Shown: positions 1,075 through 63,030 of the stretch, piece by piece
Numbering within the stretch: position 1 is the first letter of the stretch
Layout of the letters: each line of letters opens with the position of its first letter
Program-made: the position numbers and the translations under genes
The notes under the pieces: model-generated
Told to the model about the DNA's origin: nothing
Databases searched by the model: none
The model's input: the letters and a program-made list of their open reading frames with translations, nothing else
Source: Haloarcula salina
Lineage (GTDB): Archaea > Halobacteriota > Halobacteria > Halobacteriales > Haloarculaceae
Direction of reading: 5' to 3'
DNA: 64,000 bases
Assembly (NCBI RefSeq): GCF_010119195.1
Contig: NZ_WRXL01000002.1
Span: forward strand, 1 to 64,000

Positions 1075-1095
1075 TGGATTCACCAGAATCCTGAA

Positions 1096-1138: not shown

Positions 1139-1167
1139 CCACGGACACCGACCGACCAGTCACGCCT

Positions 1168-2844: not shown

Positions 2845-2877
2845 AGTCTTACACCCTTGGCCGCCCTCGAGCCAGGG

Positions 2878-2932
2878 TGTGTCACATAGTGACACAATCT
2901 ATTGTAATATAGTTATAAGGTTATCAACTATT
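2878..2932 (-). promoter_or_regulatory. TATA box and 19-bp operator-like palindrome
   Basis: Upstream of the minus-strand beta-helix gene there is an AT-rich TATA-like stretch (about 2921-2932, reading AACCTTATAACT on the minus strand). Between it and the ATG at 2844 lies a perfect palindrome, TGTGTCAC-ATA-GTGACACA (2878-2896). With transcription starting roughly 26 bases after the TATA centre (near 2900), the palindrome would sit at or just after the start site, a typical place for a repressor. The regulator is unknown. Confidence 0.55.
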
Positions 2933-3020
2933 ATATCGAGGGCGAGCAATGAACACTGATCAGCGGAGTCATCGACCACCGAAGCCGAGTCCAGTCCGTC
3001 ATTCGGAACCGGTTGCACGC

Positions 3021-3413
3021 TCAGTCGGTGTACCAGTACGCCCAGAGAATCAACACGCCCTGAAGCGGCAACCGAGCCCAGCGGGCCAGCACAGAGGGAT
3101 CACCGCTACCGGGTGCTCCTTCGATGGTGACCATGGAAACGGCCATATAGACGTTTGCAGGAAAGATCGCGATGAGCAACGCGATTGTCGCCCATGCGGC
3201 GTACGAACGCGTCCGTGGTACCAACAGGCCGAGTCCCACGACGACCTCGGCGATGCCCGAGAGATACACCAGCGCAAGCGGCGCTGGTAAAATCGGCGGC
3301 ATGATCTGGACGTACAGCTCCGGCACGACGAAATGCAAGGTCCCCGCGACGACGTACAAGATCGCCATCAGATAGAGTAATGGCCGTTTCAACTGCGCCA
3401 AGCCAACACGCAT
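3021..3413 (-). CDS. DoxX family membrane protein
   Basis: This 130-residue protein has four hydrophobic segments (about 10-30, 42-65, 70-93 and 110-127). The first carries 'AGTLHFVVPELYVQIMPP' and the second 'GIAEVVVGLGLL', both characteristic of the DoxX/DoxD-like quinone-oxidoreductase-associated family. The exact function in haloarchaea is unknown; a redox-linked membrane role is known for the family. It is divergent from the aldo/keto reductase, with 108 bases between the start codons, which could share a promoter region. The length is normal for the family. Confidence 0.8.
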   Translation of the reverse strand: MRVGLAQLKRPLLYLMAILYVVAGTLHFVVPELYVQIMPPILPAPLALVYLSGIAEVVVGLGLLVPRTRSYAAWATIALLIAIFPANVYMAVSMVTIEGAPGSGDPSVLARWARLPLQGVLILWAYWYTD

Positions 3414-3521
3414 CTCTCACAATCTATGGCGACCAGCGGAAAACCAGTTGGGATACGATCCCAGTGGAGCTGACACGCTCGTCGGCACAGGAGCTTTCTT
3501 CGAATCGATCCAAACCCAATC

Positions 3522-4334
3522 ATGGAATACGTCAGCACGGGTCAGACGCAAGTTCCGGCACTCGGATTAGGGACCTATCGTCTGCGCGGCCAGACCTGCA
3601 CCGAGACGGTGGCTCAGGCACTGGAAATGGGCTATCGCCACATCGATACGGCCGAGTACTACGAGAATCAGGCTGCGATCGGCCAGGCGCTCGCAAACAC
3701 GGCTGTCAGTAGCGACGACCTGTTCATCACGACCAAGGTCTGGCGAACGAACCTCGGCTACGAGGAGACCAAACAGTCCGTCAGAGCGTGCCGCGAGAAA
3801 CTCGGCATTGAGACGATTGATCTCCTCCTGATCCACTGGCCGAGTCGATCTGTCCCCATCGAGGAGACGATAAGAGCAATGAACGAACTCCAGAGCGATG
3901 GAGTGGTTCGACACATCGGCGTGAGCAACTTTTCGGTGGAGCAGCTTGCAAACGCACGCGAAGCCTCTGAGACACCGATCTGTACGAACCAGGTCGAGTA
4001 CAATCCATATACAGACCAGTCTGACGTGCTCGAATACTGCATCGACCACGACATCATGCTCACGGCGTACAGTCCGCTGGCCAAAGGTCGCGTCAACGAC
4101 GACACCACATTAGCGACGATTGGAGACCGATACGAGAAGTCACCAGCACAGGTGGCGCTTCGCTGGCTCGTTCAGCAACAACAGGTCGCTGCGATACCGA
4201 AGGCAGCCAGCCATGCCCATCTGGAATCAAACCTCTCGATCTTCGACTTCGAGTTGACTGACGAGGAAATGGCACAGATCTTCGACCTGCAGGGTGGACT
4301 GCTAGAACGGGTTCGGTCGATGTTGGGACTGTAG
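3522..4334 (+). CDS. Aldo/keto reductase
   Basis: This 270-residue protein is an NAD(P)H-dependent oxidoreductase with the AKR TIM-barrel. The catalytic tetrad is visible: Asp42 and Tyr47 in 'HIDTAEYY', Lys72 in 'TTKVW' and His105 in 'LIHWP'. The signatures 'GVSNFSVEQL' and 'NQVEYNPY' follow, and the C-terminal 'AIPKAASHAHLESN' matches the cofactor-binding segment. The length is full for the family. The physiological substrate, probably an aldehyde or 2,5-diketo-gluconate-like compound, cannot be told from sequence. The start is the ATG giving MEYVSTG, the usual short N-terminus. Confidence 0.93.
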   Translation: MEYVSTGQTQVPALGLGTYRLRGQTCTETVAQALEMGYRHIDTAEYYENQAAIGQALANTAVSSDDLFITTKVWRTNLGYEETKQSVRACREKLGIETIDLLLIHWPSRSVPIEETIRAMNELQSDGVVRHIGVSNFSVEQLANAREASETPICTNQVEYNPYTDQSDVLEYCIDHDIMLTAYSPLAKGRVNDDTTLATIGDRYEKSPAQVALRWLVQQQQVAAIPKAASHAHLESNLSIFDFELTDEEMAQIFDLQGGLLERVRSMLGL

Positions 4335-4387
4335 CGTTTCAGATTTCTATATGAGTAGCAGATCGAAAATTCCGTAGCGTTACTCCG

Positions 4388-4672
4388 CTATTCGCCGATT
4401 TTGTACTCCGCATCTTCATTGAAGTATGCATCCCGATCGGCCCTTGACATCTCGGCAAGAGCAAACTGCGACTGGAGTTCCACACCACTCAAATCCGCGC
4501 CGGTGATGGGATCGAAATTACTCCGCTCTGCTTCTTCAGCACTGAGTTCCGTGCCATCCGGGGTAATGAAGATATCTTTGCTCGGGCTTTCCACATCTGG
4601 AGTCACAGAGTCCGAGGGCGTCACTACAATCTGATCGGGATGGTACCCTGCATCTCGAATGGTCTTGTTCAT
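4388..4672 (-). CDS. Small acidic hypothetical protein
   Basis: This 94-residue protein starts at the ATG giving MNKTIRDAG; the frame is open further upstream, but that would overlap the PIN gene. It is acidic and hydrophilic with no membrane segment. A 'FITPDGTELSAEEAERSNFDPITG' type of segment in the middle looks like a short beta-hairpin followed by a helix. No family was recognised. It lies 28 bases downstream of the PIN-domain toxin gene on the same strand and may be cotranscribed with the toxin-antitoxin pair. Its reality rests on codon use and composition. Confidence 0.5.
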   Translation of the reverse strand: MNKTIRDAGYHPDQIVVTPSDSVTPDVESPSKDIFITPDGTELSAEEAERSNFDPITGADLSGVELQSQFALAEMSRADRDAYFNEDAEYKIGE

Positions 4673-4700
4673 CCCTTCGTCGGAGGTATCTATATCGGTG

Positions 4701-5213
4701 TCAGGGCTCCTCGAGCAACGAGCGAGCTCGTTGCACATAGCTGTTTGCTCCCCAGCTACGGGCGTCACTAATCTCATCGAGGAGCAGCCGCGCATCGGCA
4801 GCCGATAGGTGTTCGGTTCGAACGAGAACCGAGAGCAGTGTCGGTGTCGTGACGAGTCGGGTATCCGCGAGTGAGGCGTGGATCAAGCCAAGTTGGTTGA
4901 ACTCGTCACAGAGGAAGAGCGCAGCATCGAGATCGTTCGCGAGCGTGACCGCCGCGTTTTCACCGTCATCGAGCGGAAACTCGGCATCGAGGTCCACCGA
5001 CTGTGTCGTGAATGCATCCACCCGGTCGAGGACGGCGGACGCGGCGTGGCCATGGACGTCATCGTAGGAGGCGATCTCTTGGAGTTCATCGATGACCGCA
5101 GTTGGGACGACGACCTCGTATCGGGAGAGACAGAGTGCGAGTGGATCGGGGTCGTCGTCAGTAACGATCCCGAGACTCACGAGGGCTGAGGCGTCTGCGA
5201 TACACCGCGACAT
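4701..5213 (-). CDS. PIN-domain ribonuclease toxin (VapC-like)
   Basis: This 170-residue protein has the acidic active-site pattern of PIN nucleases: Asp7 in 'IADASAL', Glu43 in 'AVIDELQE', Glu85 in 'DDGENAAV' and Asp103 in 'LFLCDEF'. PIN toxins cleave RNA using bound metal ions. Its ATG (5213-5211) directly abuts the stop codon of the upstream RHH gene (5216-5214), the usual antitoxin-toxin order. The family is the longer PIN variant typical of haloarchaea ('DEFNQLGLIHASLADTRLVTTPTLL'). The cellular RNA target is unknown. Confidence 0.85.
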   Translation of the reverse strand: MSRCIADASALVSLGIVTDDDPDPLALCLSRYEVVVPTAVIDELQEIASYDDVHGHAASAVLDRVDAFTTQSVDLDAEFPLDDGENAAVTLANDLDAALFLCDEFNQLGLIHASLADTRLVTTPTLLSVLVRTEHLSAADARLLLDEISDARSWGANSYVQRARSLLEEP

Positions 5214-5516
5214 CTATGCGTCGGCTACCTCGTCGATGAAGTCCTCGTCCAACTGCTGTTTCAACACTCGGAGGTTTGCCGCCTCCTCGGCGCCGACGAG
5301 TGCTTTGAGTTGATCGAAGGTGATCTCGTCGTCGTAATAGGCGGCGGCGATCTCCTGGACGAGTGCGTCGTCGTGAGCGGCGTCTTGGAGGTACTCCCGA
5401 AGCGCGGTCACGAGGACGTCTGTTCGGTCTTCCCCGAGGACTGCGGCCAGTGCGTCGGCCCGGTCGATGAGTCGATCGGGGGCCCGAAACTGCACGCGCT
5501 TCTTATCGGTGCTCAT
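5214..5516 (-). CDS. RHH-type antitoxin partner of the PIN toxin
   Basis: This 100-residue protein has an N-terminal ribbon-helix-helix motif (about 1-45, 'KKRVQFRAPDRLIDRADALAAVLGEDRTDVLVTALREYL'-like in two parts) followed by a C-terminal tail rich in helices ('ITFDQLKALVGAEEAANLRV') that should wrap the toxin. The start is the ATG giving MSTDKKRV; an upstream ATG would add an unrelated Arg-rich stretch. The gene directly precedes the PIN gene with no gap. Two near-identical 17-base direct repeats lie immediately upstream and are good candidates for autoregulation sites. The family resembles UPF0175-like antitoxins. Confidence 0.82.
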   Translation of the reverse strand: MSTDKKRVQFRAPDRLIDRADALAAVLGEDRTDVLVTALREYLQDAAHDDALVQEIAAAYYDDEITFDQLKALVGAEEAANLRVLKQQLDEDFIDEVADA

Positions 5517-5519
5517 GAT

Positions 5520-5573
5520 GTGTACATTGTGAGCCAGCGCACTTAGCCGTTTTCGTGTGTACGATGTGAGCCA
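5520..5573 (-). promoter_or_regulatory. Direct repeats upstream of the antitoxin gene
   Basis: Two 17-base copies, GTGTACATTGTGAGCCA (5520-5536) and GTGTACGATGTGAGCCA (5557-5573), differ at two positions and are spaced 37 bases apart. They lie four bases upstream of the antitoxin ATG. Direct repeats in the promoter are typical for RHH proteins that bind as cooperative dimers and repress their own operon. No other function is suggested by the sequence. Confidence 0.6.
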
Positions 5574-5591
5574 CACTCGGCCACGCGTCAC

Positions 5592-5903
5592 TTGTCCACG
5601 GGATGCTTCTTGAGACCGTTTGTCCAGTACGTAGCGGACTCACCAAGGCTACACTGCTCGCACAGCTGCAAGGGGCCTTCGAGACGGCCGAGTTCGACTC
5701 TGAATCCCGTGAGCGACCAGCTGAATCGGCCTGTCTCGCTCCTCCGTATCGACTCGGTCGTCTGGCAAGCTGGCCAGATTATCGGGATCCACGAACCGGA
5801 TAGCGGGGCTGCCCGAACCGCGCTCGTCGAGCACGTCACATCCGTCGGAATTGACCCTGATCCTGCCGCTGAGCTGGCCGAACAATTTACTGTTGAGATG
5901 TGA
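5592..5903 (+). other. Possible degraded gene remnant
   Basis: The open frame on the plus strand ends in a segment that looks protein-like ('VVWQAGQIIGIHEPDSG', then 'DPAAELAEQF'), but its first half is Ser, Pro and Arg rich and unlike a haloarchaeal protein. A second plus-strand frame over 5603-5803 is also partly protein-like, as expected from an old frameshift. No family was recognised. It may be a decayed gene between the toxin-antitoxin pair and the DUF6884-like gene, or simply a chance ORF. Confidence 0.3.
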
Positions 5904-5957
5904 CTACGCTAGCACAGGACAACCAGCCATAGACGCGAAATCGGTCTCGTCAGTTGT

Positions 5958-6359
5958 GTGAAAACCAAGCGTGATCAACCCGCTCGGCCGAGAGACCTCT
6001 ACACGTCGACGTATTTCGAGAAGATGCGAGCGTATGCAGAGCGCGAACACGACGAGTGGTGGATTCTCTCGGCGAAACACGGCCTTCTCGATCCAGACGG
6101 CGACCTGATCGAACCGTACGAGAAGACGCTGACCTCCGCCAGTGTGGCCAAACGACGTGAGTGGGCTTCTGAAGCGGTCGACCAGATGCAAGAGATGGGT
6201 GTTCTGCGTGGAGACGAAACGCTCGTTTTCCATGCTGGGAAAGCATACTACGAGGAATTGCTTCTATTGCTTGAAGATTTTCCAGATGCCGATGTTGCGA
6301 TTCCGACTGAGGGCCTCGCTATCGGTGAACGAGTGGCATGGTACAGTGATCGACTCTGA
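5958..6359 (+). CDS. DUF6884-like protein, 5' end odd
   Basis: This protein of at least 133 residues has the conserved blocks 'DLYTSTYFEKMRAYAE', 'WWILSAKHGLLDP' and 'IEPYEKTL' of the DUF6884 family, a small alpha/beta domain found in mobile elements and related in pattern to YaaA-like proteins. The family normally begins with a strand 'IGLVSCVKTK'. Here codons for IGLVSC (5940-5957) lie in frame directly upstream of the GTG at 5958, but no ATG, GTG or TTG exists between them and the stop at 5910-5912. The gene therefore either lost its start or uses an unusual one. Function is unknown. Confidence 0.7.
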   Translation: MKTKRDQPARPRDLYTSTYFEKMRAYAEREHDEWWILSAKHGLLDPDGDLIEPYEKTLTSASVAKRREWASEAVDQMQEMGVLRGDETLVFHAGKAYYEELLLLLEDFPDADVAIPTEGLAIGERVAWYSDRL

Positions 6360-6369
6360 CTCGAACTAC

Positions 6370-7509
6370 TCACGTTCCAGCGGCTAACTCCCGTAGGATT
6401 TCGCGGGCTTCCGTCCGGGTCTTCGGAAATAATTGGTCATCTGGTGGTGGTCTATCTCCGATGGCCCACTGAAAGGCGGCGTTGAGAAGCGATTCCGTCT
6501 CCGACGCAATACTGTCACAGAACCGCGGGTCCGAGAGGGCAGCACCTGCTTCCCAGATCGGTGCAAAGTCGCCTGAACAGCCCTCTGTACAGCATTCCGA
6601 CTGTTCCTCGTTTGGCCCACTACCACCAGTATCACTCTCGGTGCCTTGGGCTGTGCCAGCGAGCTCTCGTGCCCGAGTGGCGATGAGGTCGTACAGGCCT
6701 GCGTCAAGTTCGCTTTCGGGTGAGAACTGATTTGTCGACAGCTCTCCGAACCATCTGATGCTGTGTTTGCTTGCTGTGGTCTCGAAAGTCGAGTGCGAGA
6801 GCAAGTACATCGACAGCCCGATCATGTCCTCGTAGCCCGAATCGATATTCGGCGAGAACCGGTCGAGACTGCGTATTCGTCGGAGAATCCATCCCTCTTG
6901 TTCGTCGGCGTCGCTCCAGCCAACGTCACGAGCGAGGCCGATGAGGTGATAGTGCGGGCTCCAGTAGGTTAAGTCGCGCCAGGATGCGTCCTGTTGGCGA
7001 ACCCATCGCCAGAGTTTTCCGTCCCGTTCGGGCAGCCACTCTCCCGATTTGACCGCTGCGTCGTATGCATCCTTTGCGGCGTCAGCCACACGGAAGCCAT
7101 GGAAGATGGCAACACCGCCACGGATGCCTTTCGCCCGTGCCAATTCGTAGGTCTCACGATATCCACGCTGGATATCGACCAGAGATTTGATCGATCCAGT
7201 GGGTGGTGAGACGACCACGTGAACCGCTCGTTTATCCAATCCCGGGTCTGCAGTCGCTCGTGCTGCGCCAAGTCGGACGGTGATCTGCTCAGCACGTCGG
7301 CGTCGCCACGCACTCCAGCAGAACGGACAGGTCCGCGTCTCACAGGTTGACTGCTCGAAGTGTGGATTGCCACAATCGGTGCAAAATTTCGACGGATAGT
7401 ACGCGCCACACGATTCAGGCTGGTCACCCATCCCGGGAAGCGAGACAGAGCTCTCGGCATAGAATCGGATCGCGACGTCTTCCGGCCACTGTCCTGGCGA
7501 TTCACTCAT
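6370..7509 (-). CDS. HUH-type rolling-circle replication protein
   Basis: This 379-residue protein has a cysteine-rich N-terminal region (Cys34, 43, 46, 56, 61 and 64, the last four within 'CETRTCPFCW') that should bind zinc. An HUH motif, His186-Tyr187-His188 in 'YWSPHYHLIG', follows with the 'RAVHVVVSPP' strand ahead of it (about 94-103). Tyr235 in 'MYLLSH' is a plausible nicking tyrosine. This is the layout of haloarchaeal plasmid and pleolipovirus-type Rep proteins, which nick the origin and stay bound to the 5' end. The C-terminal part carries a second Cys cluster ('CCTEGC'). It marks the island as plasmid-derived. Transposase is an alternative reading of HUH, but no element ends were seen. 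Confidence 0.72.
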   Translation of the reverse strand: MSESPGQWPEDVAIRFYAESSVSLPGMGDQPESCGAYYPSKFCTDCGNPHFEQSTCETRTCPFCWSAWRRRRAEQITVRLGAARATADPGLDKRAVHVVVSPPTGSIKSLVDIQRGYRETYELARAKGIRGGVAIFHGFRVADAAKDAYDAAVKSGEWLPERDGKLWRWVRQQDASWRDLTYWSPHYHLIGLARDVGWSDADEQEGWILRRIRSLDRFSPNIDSGYEDMIGLSMYLLSHSTFETTASKHSIRWFGELSTNQFSPESELDAGLYDLIATRARELAGTAQGTESDTGGSGPNEEQSECCTEGCSGDFAPIWEAGAALSDPRFCDSIASETESLLNAAFQWAIGDRPPPDDQLFPKTRTEAREILRELAAGT

Positions 7510-7889
7510 TGCAGATACGGGTACTACCTATTGTACCCCAGTTACATTCACTTGAATACTTTTCTCTGGTCGCAGGGACCAGCCGGCTTCACTCAACCGT
7601 TCTCCAAGCCAATCGCTACGAGAACGATATTCAGAAGGCTCGCACAGTGTGCCTAAAAAACTGCAACTTGGCCGATCAGCAACCGCCACCTTTCTCCAAT
7701 GTCTCACACTCCTGAATTTGTTCGGTTGTCTTCCGCCACAGGCAGCGGCAGTCACCACGTTTTGCAGTGCTGTGACTGCGCTTGCTACCCACCTGACAAC
7801 CGCATATTCATGGATCTCGGACATTGCACACGCGTATAGCGGGGATCGGAGTGGGGAGAGGGGATGCGGTCAAATCGGCCTATGTTCAC
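7510..7889. other. Gap upstream of the Rep gene with an inverted repeat
   Basis: This 380-base stretch holds no convincing gene. An 8-bp perfect inverted repeat, GCAGTCAC (7748-7755) and GTGACTGC (7772-7779), with 16 bases between the arms, could form a stem of the kind seen at double-strand origins of rolling-circle plasmids. No conserved nick site was identified. Confidence 0.4.
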
Positions 7890-8627
7890 TCAATCAAAAC
7901 TCAATGCATCTTGTCGGAGCGCTTTCTGTGGAGTCGGTCCAGATATTCGACCGCCACACTCCTCGCAGATCCATATTCCCACGTGGTCGTCCATCTCCTC
8001 AGGGAGAATAATATTGACACATTCAGCGGATTCCAGTCGACAGGTGTGACAGTGAATTCTTGCAGTCGAGCCGATGTACTCGTCGAATCCCTTCCCAACA
8101 GCTGTTGGTTCAAGCGACACTCCGATGACGATCCACACTGGGTCAGTGCCTACCGTCGTCGCCTCTTCTAACGCATCTGCCGAGGTGATTTGCGTTCCCC
8201 ATTCATCGTATACTATCGACTTGTTGTCCTCGAAAGAACAGACTGAGCGCATCTGAACAACAACGTCATCGTAGCCGTCATCGCCAGCCTTCGCGACTGG
8301 CGGAAGATCCTCCCATGCGGAATTTGCGACCACTCTCGGCGGTGTTTTGAACTCGCTGATTATTTCGAAGCTTTCGGTCCGTTCGTAATCCCAGAGTGTT
8401 TCTGGTCGGTCATCCCGGCAACCGAATGCAGCAGCGGCTTTGCTCAAAGCAACTATTTCTGATGTCGCGGTAACGATGGCACAGATGACTTTGTCTTCCG
8501 TCCATGTTCCGTCACCGGTGAACTCCTTACCTTTCGATATCTGCTGGTACTCTTCATAGATCTCGATGAGAGCCTCCGATTTGGAAATATCATTTTCATT
8601 ATCATCCTTTCCTGATTCTTTAGTCAT
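7890..8627 (-). CDS. Hypothetical protein with C-terminal zinc ribbon
   Basis: This 245-residue acidic protein is not recognised as a named family. Residues about 190-235 contain two Cys pairs, in 'HCHTCRL' and 'ICEECGG', spaced as in a zinc ribbon, so it may bind nucleic acid or protein. The N-terminus is charged and flexible ('KDDNENDISKSEAL'). Base composition is lower in GC than the chromosomal genes to the right, in keeping with transfer. The 286-base gap between it and the divergent xseA gene is AT-rich and must hold both promoters. Confidence 0.6.
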   Translation of the reverse strand: MTKESGKDDNENDISKSEALIEIYEEYQQISKGKEFTGDGTWTEDKVICAIVTATSEIVALSKAAAAFGCRDDRPETLWDYERTESFEIISEFKTPPRVVANSAWEDLPPVAKAGDDGYDDVVVQMRSVCSFEDNKSIVYDEWGTQITSADALEEATTVGTDPVWIVIGVSLEPTAVGKGFDEYIGSTARIHCHTCRLESAECVNIILPEEMDDHVGIWICEECGGRISGPTPQKALRQDALSFD

Positions 8628-8913
8628 CTTACCATTATTTAGTTAGAAGTGATTTCAAATTTTGGGAAGTGTGCTCATTTTAACCCTCCAAAAAATAACC
8701 ATCTGCTGAAATATATTTCTTCCTCCGCTCAAATTGTCTGTATAGCTCAGTTTCGATTGCTATAACGGCGATATCTGTACAATTGGTGCCTTCGTCTCGA
8801 TATCTAGAGAGAAATCTCGGAAAGAATGATGTCGGGTTCGATAATCGGATTGGTGAATCGAACTACTCAAGACCACCACTGATTAAGTACGCGTCCACGC
8901 AACAGATGGTCGA

Positions 8914-10122
8914 ATGGAGTCGGAGCCGAGCGAAGCTGTGCCGATCGAGACATTACAGGAGGCGCTCGAAGCAGAGCGGGTCACGTACGTCGACACGCTG
9001 AACGCCGATATCGGTTCCCTGCTTGAGGACGCAGAACAGCTCAGATTCGACTACGTCGTCGGTGACGTTTCTGATGCCGGTGTCTCATCGAACGACCACG
9101 TCCACTTCGATCTGGTTCACGAAGACTCGACCATCCACTGCGTGATCTTCAGCTACCGTCGCAAGCAACTGGGTCTCGCTATCGAGGACGGAACGCAAGT
9201 CGCTGTGAAAGGTTCGCTTTCGTACTACGAAGACGGAGGCAACGTCTCGATCATCGTTGATGACGTGGTGGAAGTCGGTGAAGGAACGTACCAGCGAATC
9301 TACGAACAGAACCGCCATCTGCTCGAAACCGACGGCCTGCTCGATCCTGCGGCCAAGAAATCGCTTCCGGAGCTGCCCGAACGAATTGGCATCGTCACGA
9401 GTGCAACGAGCGACGCCAGAACCGATGCGATCACCAGCATCCACGACCGCTATCCCGACGTGGACATCGTCGTCCAGAACGCCACCGTTCAGGGTGACGA
9501 TGCGATGCTCTCGATCATGGGTGCGATAAGCGAATTAGATGACGACCCGCTGATCGACGTCATCGTCCTTACTCGCGGCGGTGGGGCAGACAAACATCTC
9601 CGCGTATTCAACGAGACGCCACTCTGTCGCGTCATCCACAGGACAGAGACACCGATCGTGGTCGGCGTCGGCCACGATAACGACCAGACACTGGCTGGAG
9701 AGGTAGCTGATCGGCGAGTGATGACGCCGACAGAGGTCGGATTAATCGTCACGGAGAAAGCGGCCCTGGAAGACGAACTAGACGCGCTCAGCGACAGACT
9801 GGACCGTACGTACACCGATACCGTCCAAGAGATGCTCGAGGAAACACATGACCGACTGACCCGAAGGTACGCGCAAACATTCGACTCGACATTGAGGGCG
9901 TTCGAAACAGATCTGAACCGATCGTACGAAACGCACGTTCGCGACGAACTGACCTCTCTAGAGAATCGACTGGACCGCGCCCGAACACAGTACGCACAGC
10001 AACGAAAGCGTGAACAGGACGCCGAACGGTATCGCCAACAACGACGCCATTTCATCGTGGTGCTGCTCGTTCTGGCGTTGTTCGTCGTTGCGTTGGGGCT
10101 GTTCATCCTGATCAACTTATGA
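8914..10122 (+). CDS. xseA: Exodeoxyribonuclease VII large subunit, membrane-anchored
   Basis: This 402-residue protein is the catalytic subunit of exonuclease VII, which degrades single-stranded DNA. An OB-fold lies at about 42-115 ('RFDYVVGDVSDAGVSSNDHVHFDL'-like in parts), followed by the family blocks 'RIGIVTSATSDARTD', 'VQGDDAM', 'VLTRGGGADKHLRVFNE', 'VGVGHDNDQTL' and 'VADRRVMTPTEV'. A long coiled coil spans about 280-375. Unusually, the last 25 residues (about 378-402, 'FIVVLLVLALFVVALGLFI') form a transmembrane helix, not part of normal XseA. The stop overlaps the xseB start (ATGA). The ATG at 8914 follows an AT-rich leader. Confidence 0.9.
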   Translation: MESEPSEAVPIETLQEALEAERVTYVDTLNADIGSLLEDAEQLRFDYVVGDVSDAGVSSNDHVHFDLVHEDSTIHCVIFSYRRKQLGLAIEDGTQVAVKGSLSYYEDGGNVSIIVDDVVEVGEGTYQRIYEQNRHLLETDGLLDPAAKKSLPELPERIGIVTSATSDARTDAITSIHDRYPDVDIVVQNATVQGDDAMLSIMGAISELDDDPLIDVIVLTRGGGADKHLRVFNETPLCRVIHRTETPIVVGVGHDNDQTLAGEVADRRVMTPTEVGLIVTEKAALEDELDALSDRLDRTYTDTVQEMLEETHDRLTRRYAQTFDSTLRAFETDLNRSYETHVRDELTSLENRLDRARTQYAQQRKREQDAERYRQQRRHFIVVLLVLALFVVALGLFILINL

Positions 10123-10295
10123 AGGACGACACCATCTCCGAGAAGACGGACCGACTCGAAATGATCATCGACCAACTCGAAGCGGGAGACGTCTCGCTCG
10201 AACGCGCGAACGAACTCCACGACGAGGGGACGGAGCTGCTGGCAGAACTGGAGTCCGAACTGGCAGTTGGCGACGGTGAGATTGTTGATCGATGA
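10119..10295 (+). CDS. xseB: Exodeoxyribonuclease VII small subunit
   Basis: This 58-residue protein has the XseB pattern of two short antiparallel helices, with the signature 'LEMIIDQLEAGDVSLERANELHDEG'-like core (residues about 13-37). XseB coats the coiled-coil arms of XseA and is needed for a soluble active complex. Its ATG overlaps the xseA stop by the ATGA arrangement, indicating translational coupling. The length is a little short but complete for the family. It was found by reading the region after xseA. Confidence 0.9.
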   Translation: MKDDTISEKTDRLEMIIDQLEAGDVSLERANELHDEGTELLAELESELAVGDGEIVDR

Positions 10296-10501
10296 GAAGG
10301 AGAGCCTAATTGCCAGTAATTGCTAATCCACCTGCACTTCGGACAGACCACAGTTTCCAGCGATACCAGTCATGAACATGTGGCGGGCAGCGACGACATC
10401 CTCCTCTACCCTGAAAAAGCCACAGTTACTCGAACGGTAGCGCTCTCCTTCCATAGAAAACGGTCTGCTATACTTTCTGTGCTGGGACTGCTTGGTTCGG
10501 C

Positions 10502-12070
10502 ATGGCAACGGGGCGCATCATCGTGGTGGTGTGGATCGTTCTCTTGTCGATCCTCGCTGGCTGTGCAGGGACTTCGGATACACCGATTACAGAGACAGAG
10601 ACACTCTCCGAAACTGAAACAGCGACAGTTGAGTCAACTGTGAGTGCTGATCCAGATTCAGAACTCAATGCCCGGATAGTCAATATCTCTGAAAACGACA
10701 GTGGTGACGTAGTCTCATTCTCACTTCGGGTGTGTGCAGATACGCGCCTTCCCAATGCCGACGGAGAAGGCAATCCAGGTGAACCGACTCTCACTGTCAG
10801 GATCAACGATATCGAAGTATCCAGAAGCGAGAATGTTAGTAGGTCTCCGAATTACAGAAAAACAATCCATCTCGACACTACAACCCTTTCACAATTTGAT
10901 TCTGGCCAACTGTATCTGGGTATCGAACTCGTCGATCTCGATATCGTATTTCACGACGACATCGCGAGCTGGAATGGTACTATTGCAAATTTCAGTCAAT
11001 CTACTCTGGAGACCGCTACACCAGGGTACACGATGACACCAACACCAGACAGTCCGACTCGAACGGTCGTGACACAGTCGGCATCACGATCGCCGACTGC
11101 GAGCCCGACACCAGAGCCAATCCAAACTCCAGTCGTCACTGGTACATTCACCTCAACGACAACCCCCACCCCCGAGGTACAGCCGACACCGACGCCGACT
11201 CCGGAGCCAACCCCAACGCCGGACCGAGAAGAGCGCACTGAGTTCCGAGTCACTGTGGTTGAGATCGTCGATGGTGACACCATCGATGTAAGATATGAGG
11301 ATGGAGACGAGGAAAGAGTACGGCTCTTGGGCGTCGATACGCCAGAGGTACACACGACGACGGACCCCGATGAGTGGGAAGGGATTCCGGACACGGATCG
11401 TGGGAGTGATCACCTTCGAGATTGGGGCCACAAGGCGAGTGAATTCGCCAGAACAGAACTCGAACGAGGAGAAGAGATACGGATCGTCGTTGACGAGGAA
11501 GCAGACAGACGGGGAAGCTACGGACGATTACTGGTGTATATCTACGATGACGGCACCCTATTCAATCACGCACTGATTGAGCAAGGCTATGCGCGGTTGT
11601 ACGACACCGCGTTCAGTAAGCGCTCGCAATTTGCCTCGACTGAAGCGAATGCACGGGCTCAGGAGATCGGCGTCTGGAATTTCGAACCTCAGACACCTGA
11701 ACCGACACCAGAGCCGACTCCGACGCCCGAGCAGATCGGGGATGGGCTGATCGTTGCGAACATCCACGAAGATGCGTCTGGAAATGATCACGAAAACGAG
11801 AATGACGAATACGTTGTCTTCGAGAATACGGGAGAATCGACATTGGATCTGTCCGGGTGGACCGTTGAAGACGAAGCCGAGCACACCTATCGGTTCCCGG
11901 ATGGCTTCGAACTTGATCCAGGTTCGAAAGTGACGCTGTACACTGGGAGCGGCACGGAAACCGACTCGGAACTGTACTGGGGATCAGATGCGGCCATTTG
12001 GAATAACAATGGGGACACGATATACGTGATTGACGAAAATGGAAAGACCGTGGTCAAGGAGCCGTACTGA
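10502..12070 (+). CDS. Lipoprotein with SNase and lamin-tail domains
   Basis: This 522-residue secreted protein has a hydrophobic N-terminus ending in a lipobox (LAGC, Cys about residue 21). A region with a possible beta-sandwich (55-165) is followed by Thr/Pro-rich linkers (about 175-245). A staphylococcal-nuclease-like (thermonuclease) domain then spans about 248-400, with 'VEIVDGDTIDVRY', 'VRLLGVDTPEVH' and 'RRGSYGRLLVYIY' holding the expected Arg, Glu and Arg residues. After another Thr/Pro linker comes a lamin-tail (LTD) domain (about 415-522, 'DEYVVFENTGESTLDLSGW'). It probably cuts extracellular DNA at the cell surface. It follows xseAB by 206 bases on the same strand. Confidence 0.85.
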   Translation: MATGRIIVVVWIVLLSILAGCAGTSDTPITETETLSETETATVESTVSADPDSELNARIVNISENDSGDVVSFSLRVCADTRLPNADGEGNPGEPTLTVRINDIEVSRSENVSRSPNYRKTIHLDTTTLSQFDSGQLYLGIELVDLDIVFHDDIASWNGTIANFSQSTLETATPGYTMTPTPDSPTRTVVTQSASRSPTASPTPEPIQTPVVTGTFTSTTTPTPEVQPTPTPTPEPTPTPDREERTEFRVTVVEIVDGDTIDVRYEDGDEERVRLLGVDTPEVHTTTDPDEWEGIPDTDRGSDHLRDWGHKASEFARTELERGEEIRIVVDEEADRRGSYGRLLVYIYDDGTLFNHALIEQGYARLYDTAFSKRSQFASTEANARAQEIGVWNFEPQTPEPTPEPTPTPEQIGDGLIVANIHEDASGNDHENENDEYVVFENTGESTLDLSGWTVEDEAEHTYRFPDGFELDPGSKVTLYTGSGTETDSELYWGSDAAIWNNNGDTIYVIDENGKTVVKEPY

Positions 12071-12226
12071 GTGTCTGATTTCTTGTAATCTCATGTTGCG
12101 TAACAATCATCCCAACCACAGGCACAGCTCCCTATTTTAGTGTTGGTTTTAGGAGTGATTTTGTACTGTAGAGATGACTCTAAGCTGACAAACCGGTTTT
12201 TATCCTCCACTGAGGAATTATTTGAT

Positions 12227-12667
12227 ATGGAGTTAGCTGAATATCTCAATGCCGACGAAGAGATACGTGCTGAAGCACCTGTTTACGGGGATCCACACGC
12301 ACTATTCTTTTCCGGTAAATCGGGAAAGATAGGTTGCACTGATACACGGATCTTGTTTTCTGGAAAACGAACAATGACTGCCATCAATCTGGCTGATATA
12401 TCAACTGTTCAGTATCAAGAACCGACTTGGTCAAGAGCATATCTCTACTCTGGTCTTGCATCGTTGGCGTATAGTCTATTTAATTGGAACTCCGCCTCTG
12501 GAATTGCGATATTGACTCTTCTCATTGGTAGTGTTTTACTGTTGACTGGATACTGGCTTCGGAAGAGTCAGCTGTCAATTCACACCCGGACAGAAGTTCA
12601 TGAGTTCATCTCTCGAGGCGAGTCTCTTGAACAGATTGCACGTCTATCGCGATCACAGAGCGAATAA
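12227..12667 (+). CDS. Membrane protein with PH-like domain
   Basis: This 146-residue protein starts at the ATG giving MELAEYL; an upstream in-frame ATG adds a poor segment. Residues about 1-60 ('ADEEIRAEA', 'GKIGCTDTRILFSG', 'INLADISTVQYQ') match the bacterial PH-like fold. Two transmembrane segments follow (about 70-85 and 92-112), then a second short strand region ('LSIHTRTEVHEFI'). Proteins of this type are common and of unknown role. GC is low compared with the chromosome. Confidence 0.65.
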   Translation: MELAEYLNADEEIRAEAPVYGDPHALFFSGKSGKIGCTDTRILFSGKRTMTAINLADISTVQYQEPTWSRAYLYSGLASLAYSLFNWNSASGIAILTLLIGSVLLLTGYWLRKSQLSIHTRTEVHEFISRGESLEQIARLSRSQSE

Positions 12668-12984
12668 CCGGTTAGAAGGACATTTCAATAAGTGGTCTGT
12701 GTATCTCCGCGGTCGATTTGTGGCAGTGAATCAACTACGTGTCAGAATGACTGTCATATTCCACATTGGCGGGACTGAAAGGGGCGGCTGACTGCGCGAC
12801 GGCGGACGACATAAGGACCGCAACGCAGTGAGGACCGCAGCGAGTCCCCCGAGCGCAGCCAGCCGGGGCTTTCTGTCTGTCTACCCTGGATCCCGTAATG
12901 AATCTCACACACAAACCACCACTCCGTCCGCAGTTCCGCGTTCTTTCCATAGATTTATACGAGATTACATCTACGTAATTTTCA
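12668..12984. other. Gap with a structured intergenic repeat and promoter
   Basis: This 317-base stretch has no gene. It holds the GC-rich structured element at 12771-12880 and, at its right end, a TATA-like TTTATA about 30 bases before the ATG at 12985. That spacing gives an almost leaderless transcript for the large ATPase gene. Confidence 0.6.
12771..12880. repeat. GC-rich intergenic element with repeated GGACCGCA
   Basis: The element begins GGGACTGAAAGGGGC and ends GGGGCTTTCTG. Inside it are two adjacent 17-base units starting with GGACCGCA (12815 and 12832) and an imperfect 12-bp inverted repeat (GGCTGACTGCGC at 12786-12797 against GCGCAGCCAGCC at 12853-12864, one mismatch). Elements of this kind, with GGGACTGAAAGGGGC at one end and GCTTTC at the other, are scattered between haloarchaeal genes. 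The function is unknown. Confidence 0.5.
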
Positions 12985-15900
12985 ATGACAACACAAGATA
13001 ATTTACCAGTCCCTGTAGACGAAACCCGAAAATACATCCGCGTCACACCGACCGACGAACCACTCGATCCACAAACGGTCGAGGCGCAGTTCGAACGCCT
13101 CCACCAACTCGAATCTCAGGAGATCGAAACGAGACGCTGGACCCTCCTTCAGGAACCACCACCAGCACTCGAGATATACCTCGTCGCCCCCAAAGAGGAC
13201 ACTCAGACCATCCAGTATTATTTCGGGATCGACACTCCTGATCTACACGAGCCACTGGAACGCATCCTCCGAACGATATTCCCCGACACCTACGAGTTCC
13301 GCACGGTGCAGTGGTCGCCGACGCTCGTCCCAGATCAGCCACCGACTGCCGTTCGCTTCGACGGCCAGCCAGACACCCGCAAAGACTGGCAGACGCGACT
13401 CACGCCACTCGAAACGTTCCACCAAGAGAGCGACCACGTCCGAACGCCGCTCGCGAGCGTCGTCGAGGCGTTCGCAGCCACAGACGGTCCAGCCCTCTTC
13501 CAGATCCTCGTCCGTCCCAAGTCCGACTGGACGGTCGAGCGGGATATGCACAAACAGGCTCTCGAAGAGGGAAAGGAAACCTGGGTCGGCCAGGTCATCG
13601 GCGCACTCCTCGGCCCCTCCGAGCTGGACCACTCCGACGTACGGATTCCGGTCGCAGACCGCGCTCGCCTCGACGAACTCGACGAGCGAAACCCCAGACG
13701 CTCCTTCGAGGTCAACATCCGGGCGGTCCTGTGTGACGAGCGAGACAGACACGTCGCCGACGACCTCGCAACGGCCTTTACGGAGGTCAGTCACTCCTGT
13801 TACGAACTTAGTGGCACGGTCTGCAGAAACACAGACGCACAGAGACTCAGGAACAAAATAGTTAACCGGGACTTCGACCCCGCGGACTACGAATCCCTCG
13901 ACAGCTACCTTCCACTCACCTCCCCCACCAGTCCGGGTATCGTTGTCGACGCGAGCGAACTCGGAAGCTTCTGTCTGCTCGACGGGAGCGCACTCCCGGC
14001 CGAAGCTCGTCGACGACTCGCGACGACGCCGGGCGAGCGGAAGGCGCTCCCGCTGCCGCCGCCAGAACAACTTCAGACGTATCGAGGACCAGGATTCCCG
14101 ATCGGTAACCCAATCTCACAGGATGGGACGGTCGATCACGACCCGATATCGCTTCCGCCGTCACTGCAGCCACTCCACATCGGTTTGATCGGTAAAACCG
14201 GCTCCGGAAAGACGACGAGTGCCACGAACGCCATCTGTCGGAACCATGCGGCCACCGAGGGCGCGACCATCATCAACGAGCCAAAGGGTGACGGGATGGT
14301 CAGAGCGTATCTACGCGCTCATTACGCGATGTACGGAACCCTCGAGAACGTCCTGTATTTCGACTGTTCGAAGGTCGTGCCAGCGTTCTCGTTTTTCGAC
14401 ATCCGCGACGACCTCGATGCGGGCGTTGCCCGCACCACGGCCGTCGAGGAGACGGCCGACCACTACCTCGAAATCCTCGCCGGAATCATGGGTCCCGACC
14501 GCTTCGAACAGGCCGTCCGCTCGCCCGATATCATCCGCTATCTGGTCAAGGCGCTGTTCGACTCGGTCAATGGTGACGACGCGTTCTCTCATCGAGACCT
14601 CCATACGGCAGTCCGACAGATGCACGAACGGCAGTCTGCCCCCGCCGTTTCCGATGACGACCTCGAACGGATGCTCGCCGGCGTCGTCGCAAACAGCGCC
14701 CGCTCCTTCGACGAGATCATGCAGGGCGTCGCGAATCGGATCGAAAAGATCCCGATGGACCGCCGCCTCGCTCGTGTGTTCAATCACGTTCCCGAGGAGG
14801 GTGACCCCCACTTCGACCTCGATGACTATCTCGACGAGGACGTCGTCATCATCTTCGATACGAGTGGGTTGCGACGCGAGGCTCGCGAGGCGATGACTCG
14901 CGTCATTCTCTCGAACCTCTGGACCGCGCTTCGGCGACGCGCGAAACGATCTCCCGACGCAGATTCATATAACTTAGTTAATGTGTACCTCGAAGAAGCG
15001 GCGACCGTCGCTACTTCAGATATCCTACAGGAACTGCTTGCCCAGTCCCGAAGCTTCGGGTGTTCGATCACGCTGGCGATGCAGTTTCCCGAGCAACTTC
15101 GGGCCGCTGACGAGAACGCCTACCGGGAACTGCTGAACAACGTCTCGACGTACGTGATCGGGAACGTCCCCATCGACCGCCGGTTGGCCGAACGTCTTGC
15201 AACCGCGGACCTGTCAGCTGACGAGATTGGTGCTGTCCTCCGTGCCATCCGTCGCGGTGAGTGGCTCGCTCGGCTCCCGGCCGCCTTCGGTGAGCCCGAA
15301 CCACGTCCGTTTCGGGTGGAATCTCTCCCCCTCCCACCGGGCCATCCAGAGGGCTCTGGCGAGACGGTGACGAACGAGACTGTCGACGAGTTGGAACGCT
15401 CGGTCGCCGAACGAACACGCGAGCACTCTGGACTGACGCTCGGGACGCCGAGTACCCCCGACGAGGAGGATGCTGAGGCGTCGACGCCGACGCTGGACCG
15501 ACTCGACAGCGTCTTGCCGATGACCAACCGGCTCCCGCCGACGGTTCGGTACGTCGGAGAGGTCCACGCGCTGTGCTGTACGGGCTGTGACAACCGATAC
15601 GATACGGGTATCGAGGGGATGAAGCGCGCGATTTCCTGTTGTTCGTCGATTGACGCCGTCGATCGCGACGATGTTCCGATCTGCTCGATCCAGCTCAAGC
15701 TCACGCCCGACGAGCGCGAGGCTTCCGAGTGGTCTGACACCCAGCTCCTGTTCCTGCAGGCGGTGTACAACGCCCAGCAGCTCCGATTCGATCCCCTCGA
15801 ATACGATTTGCTGTCCGATTCGATGCTCCGTCTGCAGGAGTACGTCGATATCGACAGTGAGGCCATCCAGGACCTCCTCGACGCCGGCGTGCTATCCCAC

Positions 15901-16539
15901 GATACGGACCATCCCCACCGGCTGTACACCGTGACACCAGCCGGCCGGTCCGAGATCGGTGAACACTACCGCCGCGGCGTGGAGTACGGCCACGGGAAGG
16001 GTGATCTCGAAGAGTCCAGCGAACACGTCCTGGCCGTCGAAGTCGGCCGCCGCTATCTCGAGGCCGAGTACCTCGACGACGAGGAGTCGCCAGTCGTCGA
16101 CGTGGTCCCGTACTACGAACCGTCTGCCAACGATACCACGACTGTCCCCGCAGCCGCCGCGATGGGGAGCGATCCCGACGATATCGCCGACGCTGTCACC
16201 GAGTCCGAACAGCGCCGTCTGGACGTCGCCGGCCTCGACGCCGACGGTTCGATCGTCGTCGCCGTCGAAGCCGAGCGAATCAACAACGACGTGCATCGCG
16301 CTGCCCCCGCCGATTTCGATAAGATGGCCGCCTGCGGCGTCGAGGAGGCGATTTGGATCGTCATGTCCCAGTCCGACGGCCACGACCTCCTCAACGTTCT
16401 TCGCGCTCCCGCCGACGGCGAGCCCCGCATCGAGAAGTCGTATGCCGAGACGACTCCACCCCAGCAGTTCCGGCTCGATACCCCCGGGTGTACGGCGATC
16501 TATCCGGTCTCCTGGCTCCAGGGACAGTTGCCTGAATAG
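12985..16539 (+). CDS. HerA/TraG-like ATPase with wHTH and nuclease-like tail
   Basis: This 1184-residue protein is a motor ATPase of the HerA/VirD4/TraG group, usual in haloarchaeal conjugative or integrative plasmids. Residues 1-390 form a mixed N-terminal region. Walker A is Gly-Lys-Thr-Gly-Ser-Gly-Lys-Thr-Thr at 403-411, with a strand-acid segment 'VVIIFDTSGL' near 618 and Walker B-like 'LVNVYLEEA' near 665. A Cys cluster follows (about 865-893, 'CCTGC' and 'SCC'), then a winged-helix region (about 910-1000). The C-terminal domain (about 1010-1184) has Asp1080 and 'VAVEAE' (Glu1095, Glu1097), which resembles a PD-(D/E)xK fold with an ExE variant. It probably moves or processes DNA at the membrane. 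The nuclease reading is inference. Confidence 0.78.
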   Translation: MTTQDNLPVPVDETRKYIRVTPTDEPLDPQTVEAQFERLHQLESQEIETRRWTLLQEPPPALEIYLVAPKEDTQTIQYYFGIDTPDLHEPLERILRTIFPDTYEFRTVQWSPTLVPDQPPTAVRFDGQPDTRKDWQTRLTPLETFHQESDHVRTPLASVVEAFAATDGPALFQILVRPKSDWTVERDMHKQALEEGKETWVGQVIGALLGPSELDHSDVRIPVADRARLDELDERNPRRSFEVNIRAVLCDERDRHVADDLATAFTEVSHSCYELSGTVCRNTDAQRLRNKIVNRDFDPADYESLDSYLPLTSPTSPGIVVDASELGSFCLLDGSALPAEARRRLATTPGERKALPLPPPEQLQTYRGPGFPIGNPISQDGTVDHDPISLPPSLQPLHIGLIGKTGSGKTTSATNAICRNHAATEGATIINEPKGDGMVRAYLRAHYAMYGTLENVLYFDCSKVVPAFSFFDIRDDLDAGVARTTAVEETADHYLEILAGIMGPDRFEQAVRSPDIIRYLVKALFDSVNGDDAFSHRDLHTAVRQMHERQSAPAVSDDDLERMLAGVVANSARSFDEIMQGVANRIEKIPMDRRLARVFNHVPEEGDPHFDLDDYLDEDVVIIFDTSGLRREAREAMTRVILSNLWTALRRRAKRSPDADSYNLVNVYLEEAATVATSDILQELLAQSRSFGCSITLAMQFPEQLRAADENAYRELLNNVSTYVIGNVPIDRRLAERLATADLSADEIGAVLRAIRRGEWLARLPAAFGEPEPRPFRVESLPLPPGHPEGSGETVTNETVDELERSVAERTREHSGLTLGTPSTPDEEDAEASTPTLDRLDSVLPMTNRLPPTVRYVGEVHALCCTGCDNRYDTGIEGMKRAISCCSSIDAVDRDDVPICSIQLKLTPDEREASEWSDTQLLFLQAVYNAQQLRFDPLEYDLLSDSMLRLQEYVDIDSEAIQDLLDAGVLSHDTDHPHRLYTVTPAGRSEIGEHYRRGVEYGHGKGDLEESSEHVLAVEVGRRYLEAEYLDDEESPVVDVVPYYEPSANDTTTVPAAAAMGSDPDDIADAVTESEQRRLDVAGLDADGSIVVAVEAERINNDVHRAAPADFDKMAACGVEEAIWIVMSQSDGHDLLNVLRAPADGEPRIEKSYAETTPPQQFRLDTPGCTAIYPVSWLQGQLPE

Positions 16540-17477
16540 TACTGCTTCGAAGCCACTGTTCGCGGATTCGGTCTTCTTCGGCGCTCTCTCTCGCAGCTAG
16601 GTCCGCCCGCTGGAGTTCCGCTCAGAATCGGTGCTCATCGATTCGCCGCAACGCTCCCGAACTGCTACTCTGGACGCTCTCGTGGCCATTCTGTGACTCC
16701 ATTCTGAATGCTGCTCGAGCGGGTGGTTTTCATAGTCGGCGCTGACGGCCGCAAGAAGACTCCCAGCTACGAGCGAGAGGGTGAACTAGGACGCAGTCAG
16801 CGTGGAACGGGTAGTTTGCTAGTGCCCGGTGGAACAGCAATCGTTACAGAGCGACCCGCTCCCGGCAGGGTGTGACGTTCGAGGCGTGTCGTTCGTCGTC
16901 GTCGCTTTCACACCTGCTAATCGCAAGACTGAACCCGATTATGACTCGCTCAACGGGGGTGTTTCACGGCTGAGTCGGCGTGGTCGATAGTCCCCCGCCG
17001 GAGTTGATTCAGCTCTTTCAGCCCGTTTCTCGTTGATTCTGGGGCGATATCGTGATTCGGCCGGCCCGTCCTAGTTCTGAGTGGAACCGACGGTAGAATG
17101 TTTCTTGCGGCCGCTGAAGCCAATTATGAGGTTTTCAGAGCATTTTCCTCGGCGTCCGTTGCGAGGTGGTGACCCGGTATAATGAATCATATCTGATAGC
17201 GGCTGTCAGAAATTCGGTGGGCTACAACTCCATTGAACCAGGTATCACACAGATGCAACTGGTGAGTTTATCATGGGCACCCAGGGGTGCCCCGTATGTC
17301 CAACACAACCTGTGAGCGAAGATTGAATCGACTAGCAGTGAGCAAAGAGCGGTTGAGTAGGAAGGTCATCTGTAGCGGACCCAAACTCCGTTCGCATATA
17401 TACTGGCAAATTCTCGATATGAAACGAAGGATGGGAAAGAGACTGTTTATCCCGGAAGACGAGAGGAATGTATCCCG
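16540..17477. other. Large non-coding stretch with hairpins
   Basis: This 938-base region has no convincing ORF on either strand. It contains long-range pairing such as CGCTGAC (16740-16746) with GTCAGCG (16796-16802), and a tight hairpin GGGCACC-CAGG-GGTGCCC (17275-17292). The sequence is less GC-biased than coding DNA. It may be decayed mobile-element DNA or encode a structured RNA. A TATA-like TTTAT (17446-17450) lies about 30 bases before the ATG at 17478. Confidence 0.5.
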
Positions 17478-18707
17478 ATGATTGGTAGGGGAGATATTGG
17501 TACCAGAGTTAGCAATAGTAACCAAACTAAGATTTCAGATGGCGGATTCACGGCCGACACTGAGGTACTGACGGCGGACGGTCCGATCCAGGTGGCGGAA
17601 CTCGGAACAACCGACCGTGTCCTCGCACTCAATCCGACGACGAAAGTGGTGAAGCCAAAGTCGGTCGTCGATGTGATGGTACTCAACCCACCAGAAGAAA
17701 TAATCAGTATCAAGATAAGACGGTCTGATATTCGAGTACTTCCAGATCATCAGATACCATACACGACAAAAGGAATTTCGTATCCACGGTTCACTCGTGC
17801 GGCGGAGCTGCTCGACCGAGAGTACTATCGATTCATCAATAGTTGGCGGGATCTGGATGGCACCAGACTGCCACAGGTCGATATCACAGATATCGTTTCG
17901 GAGTTTGAGGCCTGTGTCGCCTTCGACTGTCACGGCCACACCGTGCGGCGGATACTCCCGGACGGATGTGAGCCCTGCCGTCGAAATAGCCACTATGGCT
18001 ACTTCTTCGATAAGGAGACGTTCCAAACGTACCAGAACGAACTAGAGGCCCTCGGTGAATCCGTAGAAATCCATGCGGGACGAAACCACTGGAGACGTCC
18101 GTATCGCTTTGATGGTGACGACTTTATCGAATTTCTTGGATGGTACATCACCGAGGGGTCCGTCACATGGAGGCGAACAAACTCAGCGACGATCCAAATC
18201 GCTCAAAAGACACCGGAGCATCGTGAACAAATTGAAAATCTCCTCGAGCGGATGGGGTTGTCGGAGTACAGTGATGACCGATCTTTCAGTTTCAGTTCGA
18301 CGATCTATGCTGAGTTGTTGGATCAACTCTGTGGCATCGGGTCGGAGAACATGCACTTGCCTGAGTTTCTCTGGGACTGTAGTGCTGAGCAAAAGCGACT
18401 CATGCTTCGAACGCTGGTCGCCGGTGATGGACACGAACGTGGTGCTTATTCCACAGTCAGCAAGCGACTGGTCAACGACATAGTACGACTGCTCGTGGAA
18501 CTCGGAATTAAACCACAGTACCACTGGTGTCGTGATAGCTGGCGAGTGTCTCTGTCACGAATGGAAGATGGATTCAGATCTTCTCAGAATGTCTCGACCG
18601 TTCAGACTGACAATCCGGTGTATCGATTGACCATCGAAGACTTCTGTCTGATCATGGCTGGGAGAAACGGGAAATTCCAGTGGATCGGTGTTAGTAATGT
18701 GAATTAG
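17478..18707 (+). CDS. Free-standing intein-like LAGLIDADG homing endonuclease
   Basis: This 409-residue protein has intein architecture without a host protein. The splicing (Hint) N-block begins at residue 23 ('GFTADTEVLTADG'), block B has His91 ('VLPDHQI'), DOD endonuclease motifs lie near 215-228 ('FLGWYITEGSV') and 305-318 ('LVAGDGHERG'), and the C-block ends 'GRNGKFQWIGVSN' at 407, followed by Val-Asn and a stop. The usual first Cys or Ser is Gly23, the penultimate His is Ser406, and the next residue is Val rather than Cys, Ser or Thr. It should therefore not splice. A zinc-like Cys pair ('CEPCRR') lies between. It probably acts as a selfish DNA endonuclease. The function is inferred from the family. 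Confidence 0.85.
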   Translation: MIGRGDIGTRVSNSNQTKISDGGFTADTEVLTADGPIQVAELGTTDRVLALNPTTKVVKPKSVVDVMVLNPPEEIISIKIRRSDIRVLPDHQIPYTTKGISYPRFTRAAELLDREYYRFINSWRDLDGTRLPQVDITDIVSEFEACVAFDCHGHTVRRILPDGCEPCRRNSHYGYFFDKETFQTYQNELEALGESVEIHAGRNHWRRPYRFDGDDFIEFLGWYITEGSVTWRRTNSATIQIAQKTPEHREQIENLLERMGLSEYSDDRSFSFSSTIYAELLDQLCGIGSENMHLPEFLWDCSAEQKRLMLRTLVAGDGHERGAYSTVSKRLVNDIVRLLVELGIKPQYHWCRDSWRVSLSRMEDGFRSSQNVSTVQTDNPVYRLTIEDFCLIMAGRNGKFQWIGVSNVN

Positions 18708-18809
18708 CGGTCTGGCTTGCCTCGTATTGATGTCCATCTGAACCGCTCAGTCGTCACCGTCTCGGGGACGAGCGAGAACGTGACCGTGACGCTGGAGGAG
18801 CGTCGATGA
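18708..18809 (+). pseudogene. C-terminal remnant of an interrupted gene
   Basis: After the homing-endonuclease stop, the same frame stays open for 33 codons and ends at 18807-18809. The last part reads like a true beta-rich C-terminus ('VVTVSGTSENVTVTLEERR'), with haloarchaeal codon use. No start codon is available, so this is the tail of a gene cut by the left-hand island. Its stop is one base from the stop of the convergent small membrane gene. The position fits a lost member of the pseudopilin-like cluster that follows. Identity is inferred. Confidence 0.6.
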
Positions 18810-56314: not shown

Positions 56315-56315
56315 A

Positions 56316-63029: not shown

Positions 63030-63030
63030 G

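Follow-up and report, generated by a model that had tools for sequence, protein, structure and literature searches.

The HO endonuclease and the WHO elements of yeasts are among the described systems that come closest to the locus considered here. Both descend from an intein, lack exteins and work without splicing, and WHO homing replaces part of the target gene; PMC7282813 also describes a zinc-finger fusion, FBA1 or MAT as targets and a relationship to the VMA1 intein. In haloarchaea, free-standing LAGLIDADG genes (pfam03161) lie within the glycosylation and pilin clusters of Haloferax, where transfer of islands by endonuclease-driven conversion has been proposed (PMC5867893), and in phages HEG islands place nuclease genes at the borders of exchanged blocks (PMC10448857). 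Haloferax volcanii mends breaks in its chromosome by recombination or, when cutting is strong, by end joining at microhomologies that leaves deletions (PMC7521656). A literature search with most subscription journals outside its coverage returned no description of the family presented below. The accessible part of a halobacterial intein survey that gives an allele list for haloarchaeal inteins (PMC4071816) yielded no mention of free-standing copies, and in that of PMC3229294 such copies surfaced only in a reference title.

The gene studied here lies in a 64,000-nucleotide stretch of Haloarcula salina DNA (the window). It is haloarchaeal and free-standing like the Haloferax genes, but those belong by their authors' account to another Pfam family, whereas the present one joins LAGLIDADG_3 to the Hint domain of an intein and comes with documented replacement junctions. 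Phage HEG islands differ in residing in phage genomes and in using other nuclease families. With HO and WHO the haloarchaeal protein shares descent from an intein, the lack of exteins and, to judge from its residues, independence of splicing. Unlike HO and WHO, the haloarchaeal system has a plasmid-like island as its cargo, and it is a pilus operon that is lost.

The gene occupies positions 17478..18707 (plus strand, as are the codons, the 61-aa ORF with its upstream box, the coupling-ATPase gene and the operon genes placed below) and encodes 409 amino acids; the ORF itself, profile and PDB matches, the homologue tree and a structural model all bear on its assignment as a stand-alone, apparently splice-dead, intein-derived LAGLIDADG endonuclease. 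The first-pass annotation, made from the letters alone, had proposed an intein-like LAGLIDADG gene without a host protein, and the ORF, its frame ends and comparison with congener DNA confirm this. A host protein in frame was looked for at both ends and is absent: the open frame begins just 34 codons before the ATG, and there is no extein on the 3' side, where congener homology restarts 42 bp past the stop in a different gene. A Pfam scan of the protein found LAGLIDADG_3 in two stretches (E 2e-11) and no zinc-finger domain, and the intein N-terminal profile TIGR01445 matched at 8.7e-5 with 23.4 bits, just under its cut-off of 24.5. The top PDB sequence match was the intein nuclease PI-PkoII (2cw7, E 1.4e-5). 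An AlphaFold model built with 18 homologues as input (mean pLDDT 90.3, pTM 0.87) has the same fold as 2cw7, which ranked first in both Foldseek (E 4.2e-18) and VIA (Z 23.9). The TIGR01445 match and the model together reveal a Hint fold with N- and C-terminal blocks; the C-block closes the modelled structure at residue 405, only four residues short of the protein's end at 409.

In the VIA alignment (rmsd 6.7, 373 residues aligned) residues 23..405 of the model cover intein residues 1..537 of 2cw7, which places Gly23 at the Cys1 position and Val405 at the last residue. The earlier reading that Gly23 (17544..17546) stands in for the required first Cys or Ser was therefore right, as was that of His91 as the block B histidine, and the two LAGLIDADG motifs it named are present with both catalytic acids, Glu226 (18153..18155) and Asp317 (18426..18428). 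Its account of the C-terminus was in the wrong register: Ser406 is not a substitute for the penultimate histidine but the +1 residue, which is retained, while Gly404 is penultimate and Val405 terminal (Val405 and Ser406, 18690..18695). A penultimate histidine was never to be expected here, because the related PolB inteins carry Gly-Gln at their end; those examined end in ...VG-Q/S in all 13 with a readable end, the fourteenth (L035) being cut by the end of its locus.

A homologue search over 391 genomes of the class gave matches in 173. The best 16 genomes carry stand-alone copies, a patchy distribution, and most of the next-best matches lay within long frames that, where the host was checked, proved to be inteins in PolB. 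Two further stand-alone copies came from named genomes, Halorientalis pallida and Halosimplex carlsbadense (L033 and L034), for a total of 18. In a maximum-likelihood tree of 32 proteins, a branch with 100/100 support separates these 18 from 14 inteins. All 18 loci have an ATG 8-30 codons before the glycine and a frame stop a few residues past the C-block. Residue 1 is Gly in 18/18 proteins, as against Cys in the compared inteins, and the terminal Gln/Asn position has become V, A or T in every one; the +1 serine is kept in 15/18. The block B histidine has been lost in six of the 18, and both LAGLIDADG acids, E and D, are retained throughout. For the two close pairs in which dN/dS was measurable, two other pairs being saturated, it was 0.151 (L045/L046) and 0.124 (L050/L051), which indicates strong purifying selection on the nuclease gene in both.

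Descent from an intein and loss of the splicing residues are firm, and loss of splicing itself would follow from those residues; continued nuclease function of the family is likely. The tree and the residue comparison support the earlier proposal that an endonuclease gene of intein origin, no longer able to splice, stands on its own with a start codon to itself. The accompanying idea of an escape from a host gene stands as regards descent from an intein, but not as a single recent event, since the window gene belongs to an old, conserved family of 18 stand-alone homologues. On the simplest reading, splicing would have been given up once, early, and the nuclease maintained since. A viral origin was considered and dropped: in viral contigs a single-protein query found no relative and an alignment query found 10 loci (best 30% identity), while phage and plasmid collections gave partial matches only, in the LAGLIDADG region.

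The comparison with haloarchaeal inteins that had been suggested as a route to the parent identified PolB inteins as the closest host-embedded relatives. The haloarchaeal PolB inteins at KVIMN/S share the same chain of Hint domain and two-motif LAGLIDADG nuclease, the best of them with 35-38% identity over residues 18-406 of the window protein. They differ in being embedded in PolB and in keeping Cys1, the block B histidine and the terminal Gln, the first and last of which the stand-alone family has lost along with any extein. The KVIMN/S allele is probably polB-b. Of the splicing-type relatives, the closest, at 42% identity, is carried by a divergent PolB (L052, G228:C3) and has the boundaries KRVTN/C...VGQ/SVYG; unlike the window protein, this intein lies in frame inside the polymerase with its splicing residues present. 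The suggested search for the parent target site found it intact (KVIMN/SLYG) and without an intein in the polB of the window genome itself, which makes it improbable that the enzyme still cuts there, barring resistance of the site. Around this empty site (L036, near 3010) GC3 drops to 0.55-0.75 from mostly 0.85-1.0, possibly the scar of a lost intein or else a recoded site.

The nuclease gene lies close to the edge of a large, low-GC, plasmid-like element that breaks an operon, a boundary that the first-pass annotation did not note. Positions 1..18749 of the window form the right-hand part of a low-GC integrated element, with a GC content of 0.46-0.64 that steps at 18.7 kb to about 0.70, a level held rightward until about 46 kb. 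A gene for a VirD4/TraG-like coupling ATPase (PF10412, PF12696) lies at 12985..16539, and the window genome or homologous elements also carry genes for a TraG P-loop (VirB4-like) protein, TrbL/VirB6, Cdc6/Orc1-like, TFB and PolB proteins and an NrS-1-like primase. Other element genes encode a protein with SNase and lamin-tail domains (10502-12070) and an exonuclease VII large-subunit-like protein (8914-10122). A second low-GC region (0.44-0.54) lies to the right of the core stretch at 53000-64000. The element probably spans C11:1-41.8 kb and C7:1-18.7 kb, a join of the two contigs being supposed on the grounds that the missing left part of the operon described below borders low-GC DNA on C11. 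It does not resemble an integrative element with a site-specific integrase and precise insertion: in the homologous element of G100, which has 36 other ORFs of 120 aa or more, 35 of these are free of an integrase domain, and 6.9 kb of target were lost there. A tRNA as integration site was likewise rejected, there being none in the window and two in eight flanking loci, neither at a mapped junction.

Rightward of the element lies what survives of an operon. DNA homology to five congeners begins exactly at 18750, 42 bp past the nuclease stop and inside the DUF7266 gene, of which about 19 codons and the stop remain (18750..18809), and runs on through DUF7263 (PF23924, 19061..19732), DUF7262 (PF23923, 19725..20129) and DUF7261 (PF23922, 20117..20656). 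The last of these is intact in the window and truncated beside the endonuclease gene in several relatives. In the congeners the order is a T2SSE ATPase, a T2SSF protein, DUF7289 and then the DUF7266, DUF7263, DUF7262 and DUF7261 genes, an arrangement like that of a type IV pilus operon. In the window genome this operon is split between contigs, with the 5' part of the ATPase gene on C11 and the 3' end of DUF7266 on C7; on C11, codons 2-197 of the secretion ATPase are followed by an OrfB_IS605-type ORF, codons 281-316 and then low-GC DNA to the contig start.

Other genomes show the replacement whole. G100 and G022, of the same genus, are colinear on both sides of a segment that measures 6.9 kb in G022 but consists of 50.4 kb of low-GC DNA in G100; left homology stops at G100:C1:2148721 and right homology restarts at 2199138, so that the replacement runs from just before the ATPase gene to about codon 22 of DUF7261, and the nuclease stop lies 12 bp from the right junction. 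The comparison shows a replacement of the kind that WHO homing makes; homing may have caused it. Between G281 and G138 (95% identity) the right junction falls 20 bp past the nuclease stop, at about codon 133 of DUF7261, and the left flank, which is on a different contig, stops shortly before the ATPase gene. Measured from the nuclease stop, and good only to within a few bases since BLAST ends define them, the junction distances come to 42 bp (window), 20 (L040), 5 (L045), 12 (L046), 66 (L043), 493 (L041) and 1254 (L038). The nuclease gene of L037 has the opposite orientation, with 43 bp between its start and the operon remnant, and that of L034 is followed at about 1.2 kb by a remnant of DUF7261. 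These nine of the 18 loci are the strict pilus-locus cases. Looser links, by flank colinearity or a flank gene nearby, exist for L039 (at 20 kb), L047, L049 and L051, and no link was found for the other five (L033, L042, L044, L048, L050). The left junction of G351 was not found within 80 kb upstream.

Junction positions vary, from DUF7266 in the window to codon ~133 of DUF7261 (G281), downstream of DUF7261 (G349), left of the operon (G190) and an inverted arrangement (G327). Within DUF7261, breakpoints nonetheless fall within about 18 bp of one another in three genera of three families: in g3 (L043) and g24 (L045, L046) the gene restarts at about the same codons, and in g27 18 bp further on. 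As these breakpoints cluster even though the spacers behind the nuclease gene are unrelated, codons ~14-20, in the 5' part of DUF7261, are a candidate cut region.

The operon is also missing from carriers more widely. Its genes were scored by family profiles, as a single strict protein query misses divergent genes; genus counts were read by eye from the search tables, the DUF7261 table being without four genomes whose genera are not included. G228 was not counted as a carrier, its copy being the intein inside PolB, and L032 was omitted as lying on the same contig as that of G327. DUF7263 scored above cut-off in 153/391 genomes. In the 11 genera with both kinds of genome, it was present in 64 of 76 non-carriers versus 1 of 14 carriers (Fisher 3.8e-8; 8.9e-7 when stratified by genus with the window's genus omitted), tests that overstate independence because the compared species are related. 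The lone positive carrier is the window genome, in which the operon is broken upstream. A close match to DUF7289 is absent in 16/16 carriers, six of which have weak matches (E 7.7e-8 or worse), as against 35-56% identity to the same protein in congeners. Among the matches listed in the DUF7261 searches, carriers have 5'-truncated or weak ones only, the window excepted.

Intein descent, loss of splicing residues, conservation of the acids, purifying selection, the position of the junctions and the loss or breakage of the operon in carriers are observations; a role for the enzyme in element integration at the pilus locus is our best but unproven reading of them. That the family usually sits at or near a replaced or broken pilus operon suggests that it helps elements to invade that spot. 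We therefore lean, by a little over even, towards a free-standing homing endonuclease derived from a haloarchaeal PolB-type intein that would open the pilus locus so that the element replaces the operon. A conjugative-plasmid-like element carries the nuclease gene, in many genomes at its edge. The protein has lost Cys1 and the terminal Gln, and with them splicing, but keeps the Hint scaffold and two-motif LAGLIDADG nuclease; it would make a double-strand break in or beside the pilus-like operon. Repair by the cell, through homologous recombination or end joining, may then draw on the element, which together with the nuclease gene would take the place of the operon and so remove the target. In this the enzyme would act as WHO elements and intronless homing endonucleases do, but with a large island as the cargo. 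More tentatively, and short of even likelihood, haloarchaeal conjugative plasmids without a detected integrase may integrate by means of an escaped intein nuclease that no longer splices, cutting the host's type IV pilus operon and replacing it in one step, which would make the system an archaeal counterpart of WHO and a gene drive against pili. With this family, inteins that have left the gene of their host protein and endured as conserved free-standing nucleases are no longer limited to the HO and WHO of yeasts. The family also connects such a nuclease with large mobile elements and with the recurrent loss of an operon for surface structures; should the role in integration prove true, islands found with missing pilus operons would gain a mechanism.

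The evidence for proximity could also arise if the pilus locus were an element hotspot, or one that cells can spare and frequently lose, on grounds that have nothing to do with the nuclease; the latter would then be cargo at one end. We think this rather unlikely, but it keeps real weight because of plain deletion, elements without an intact copy, absence of co-variation, scattered junctions and no known activity of the enzyme. The same element type lies beside a truncated DUF7261 without the nuclease gene in G383, an intact copy is also missing from G019, the operon has gone by plain internal deletion without an island in G056 (L180), and the DUF7263 marker is missing in 12 of the 76 non-carrier congeners. 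With one near-copy left out, distances among the nucleases show no correlation with those among the coupling ATPases (Mantel r 0.04, p 0.46), so co-divergence of the two is unsupported and the nuclease gene may shuffle between elements. Against mere cargo, the gene lies 5-66 bp from the junction in five loci of four genera (window, L040, L043, L045, L046) despite differing breakpoints and spacers, L037 is inverted and yet 43 bp away, and no integrase was found in the element. The case of G019 also turns on inspection: beside its truncated DUF7261, a 24-aa N-terminal nuclease remnant followed by an IS200/IS605 TnpA/TnpB pair (L179, 17024-18896) shows, on sequence grounds, that the gene was present before that element cut it down.

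Free-standing homing endonucleases of other families home as intronless genes, and this one might do the same, targeting some plasmid or chromosome sequence with no role in element integration. The L050/L051 pair would suit this, its gene lying inside the element, followed by primase and VirB4-like genes, with no junction; with at least nine of the 18 loci abutting or nearly abutting the pilus locus, we nevertheless regard it as improbable. The strong purifying selection, and the fact that the affected locus is a surface-structure operon, would fit a domesticated, HO-like function in programmed rearrangement of surface structures, but a gene that is so patchily distributed, that lies in mobile DNA and beside which the operon is lost rather than switched makes such a role very hard to credit. 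Hardest of all to credit is a protein that still splices or cleaves as an intein would, or a decaying pseudogene: Ser406 and the Hint fold remain, but Cys1 and the terminal Gln are gone in 18/18, and the long frames are intact with dN/dS near 0.12-0.15 in the two measured pairs.

Some smaller features accompany the gene. A 61-aa ORF (17296..17481) precedes it, its stop overlapping the endonuclease ATG (ATGA), which makes translational coupling possible, and directly 5' of that ORF are a GTTTATC TATA-like box and an inverted repeat (17266..17295); the repeat, in the region 17262-17481, has 7-bp arms. Several homologues show a TATA and palindrome arrangement before the endonuclease ATG, with an inverted repeat (shuffle P <=0.03) in 8/18. 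The palindrome was rejected as a family-wide operator, being found at that level in those eight only and not at the window's own ATG. Elsewhere in the same genome, at 1501-1590 of L002, a 30-aa stretch matching the C-terminus (E 0.026) is a possible relic of a second nuclease copy.
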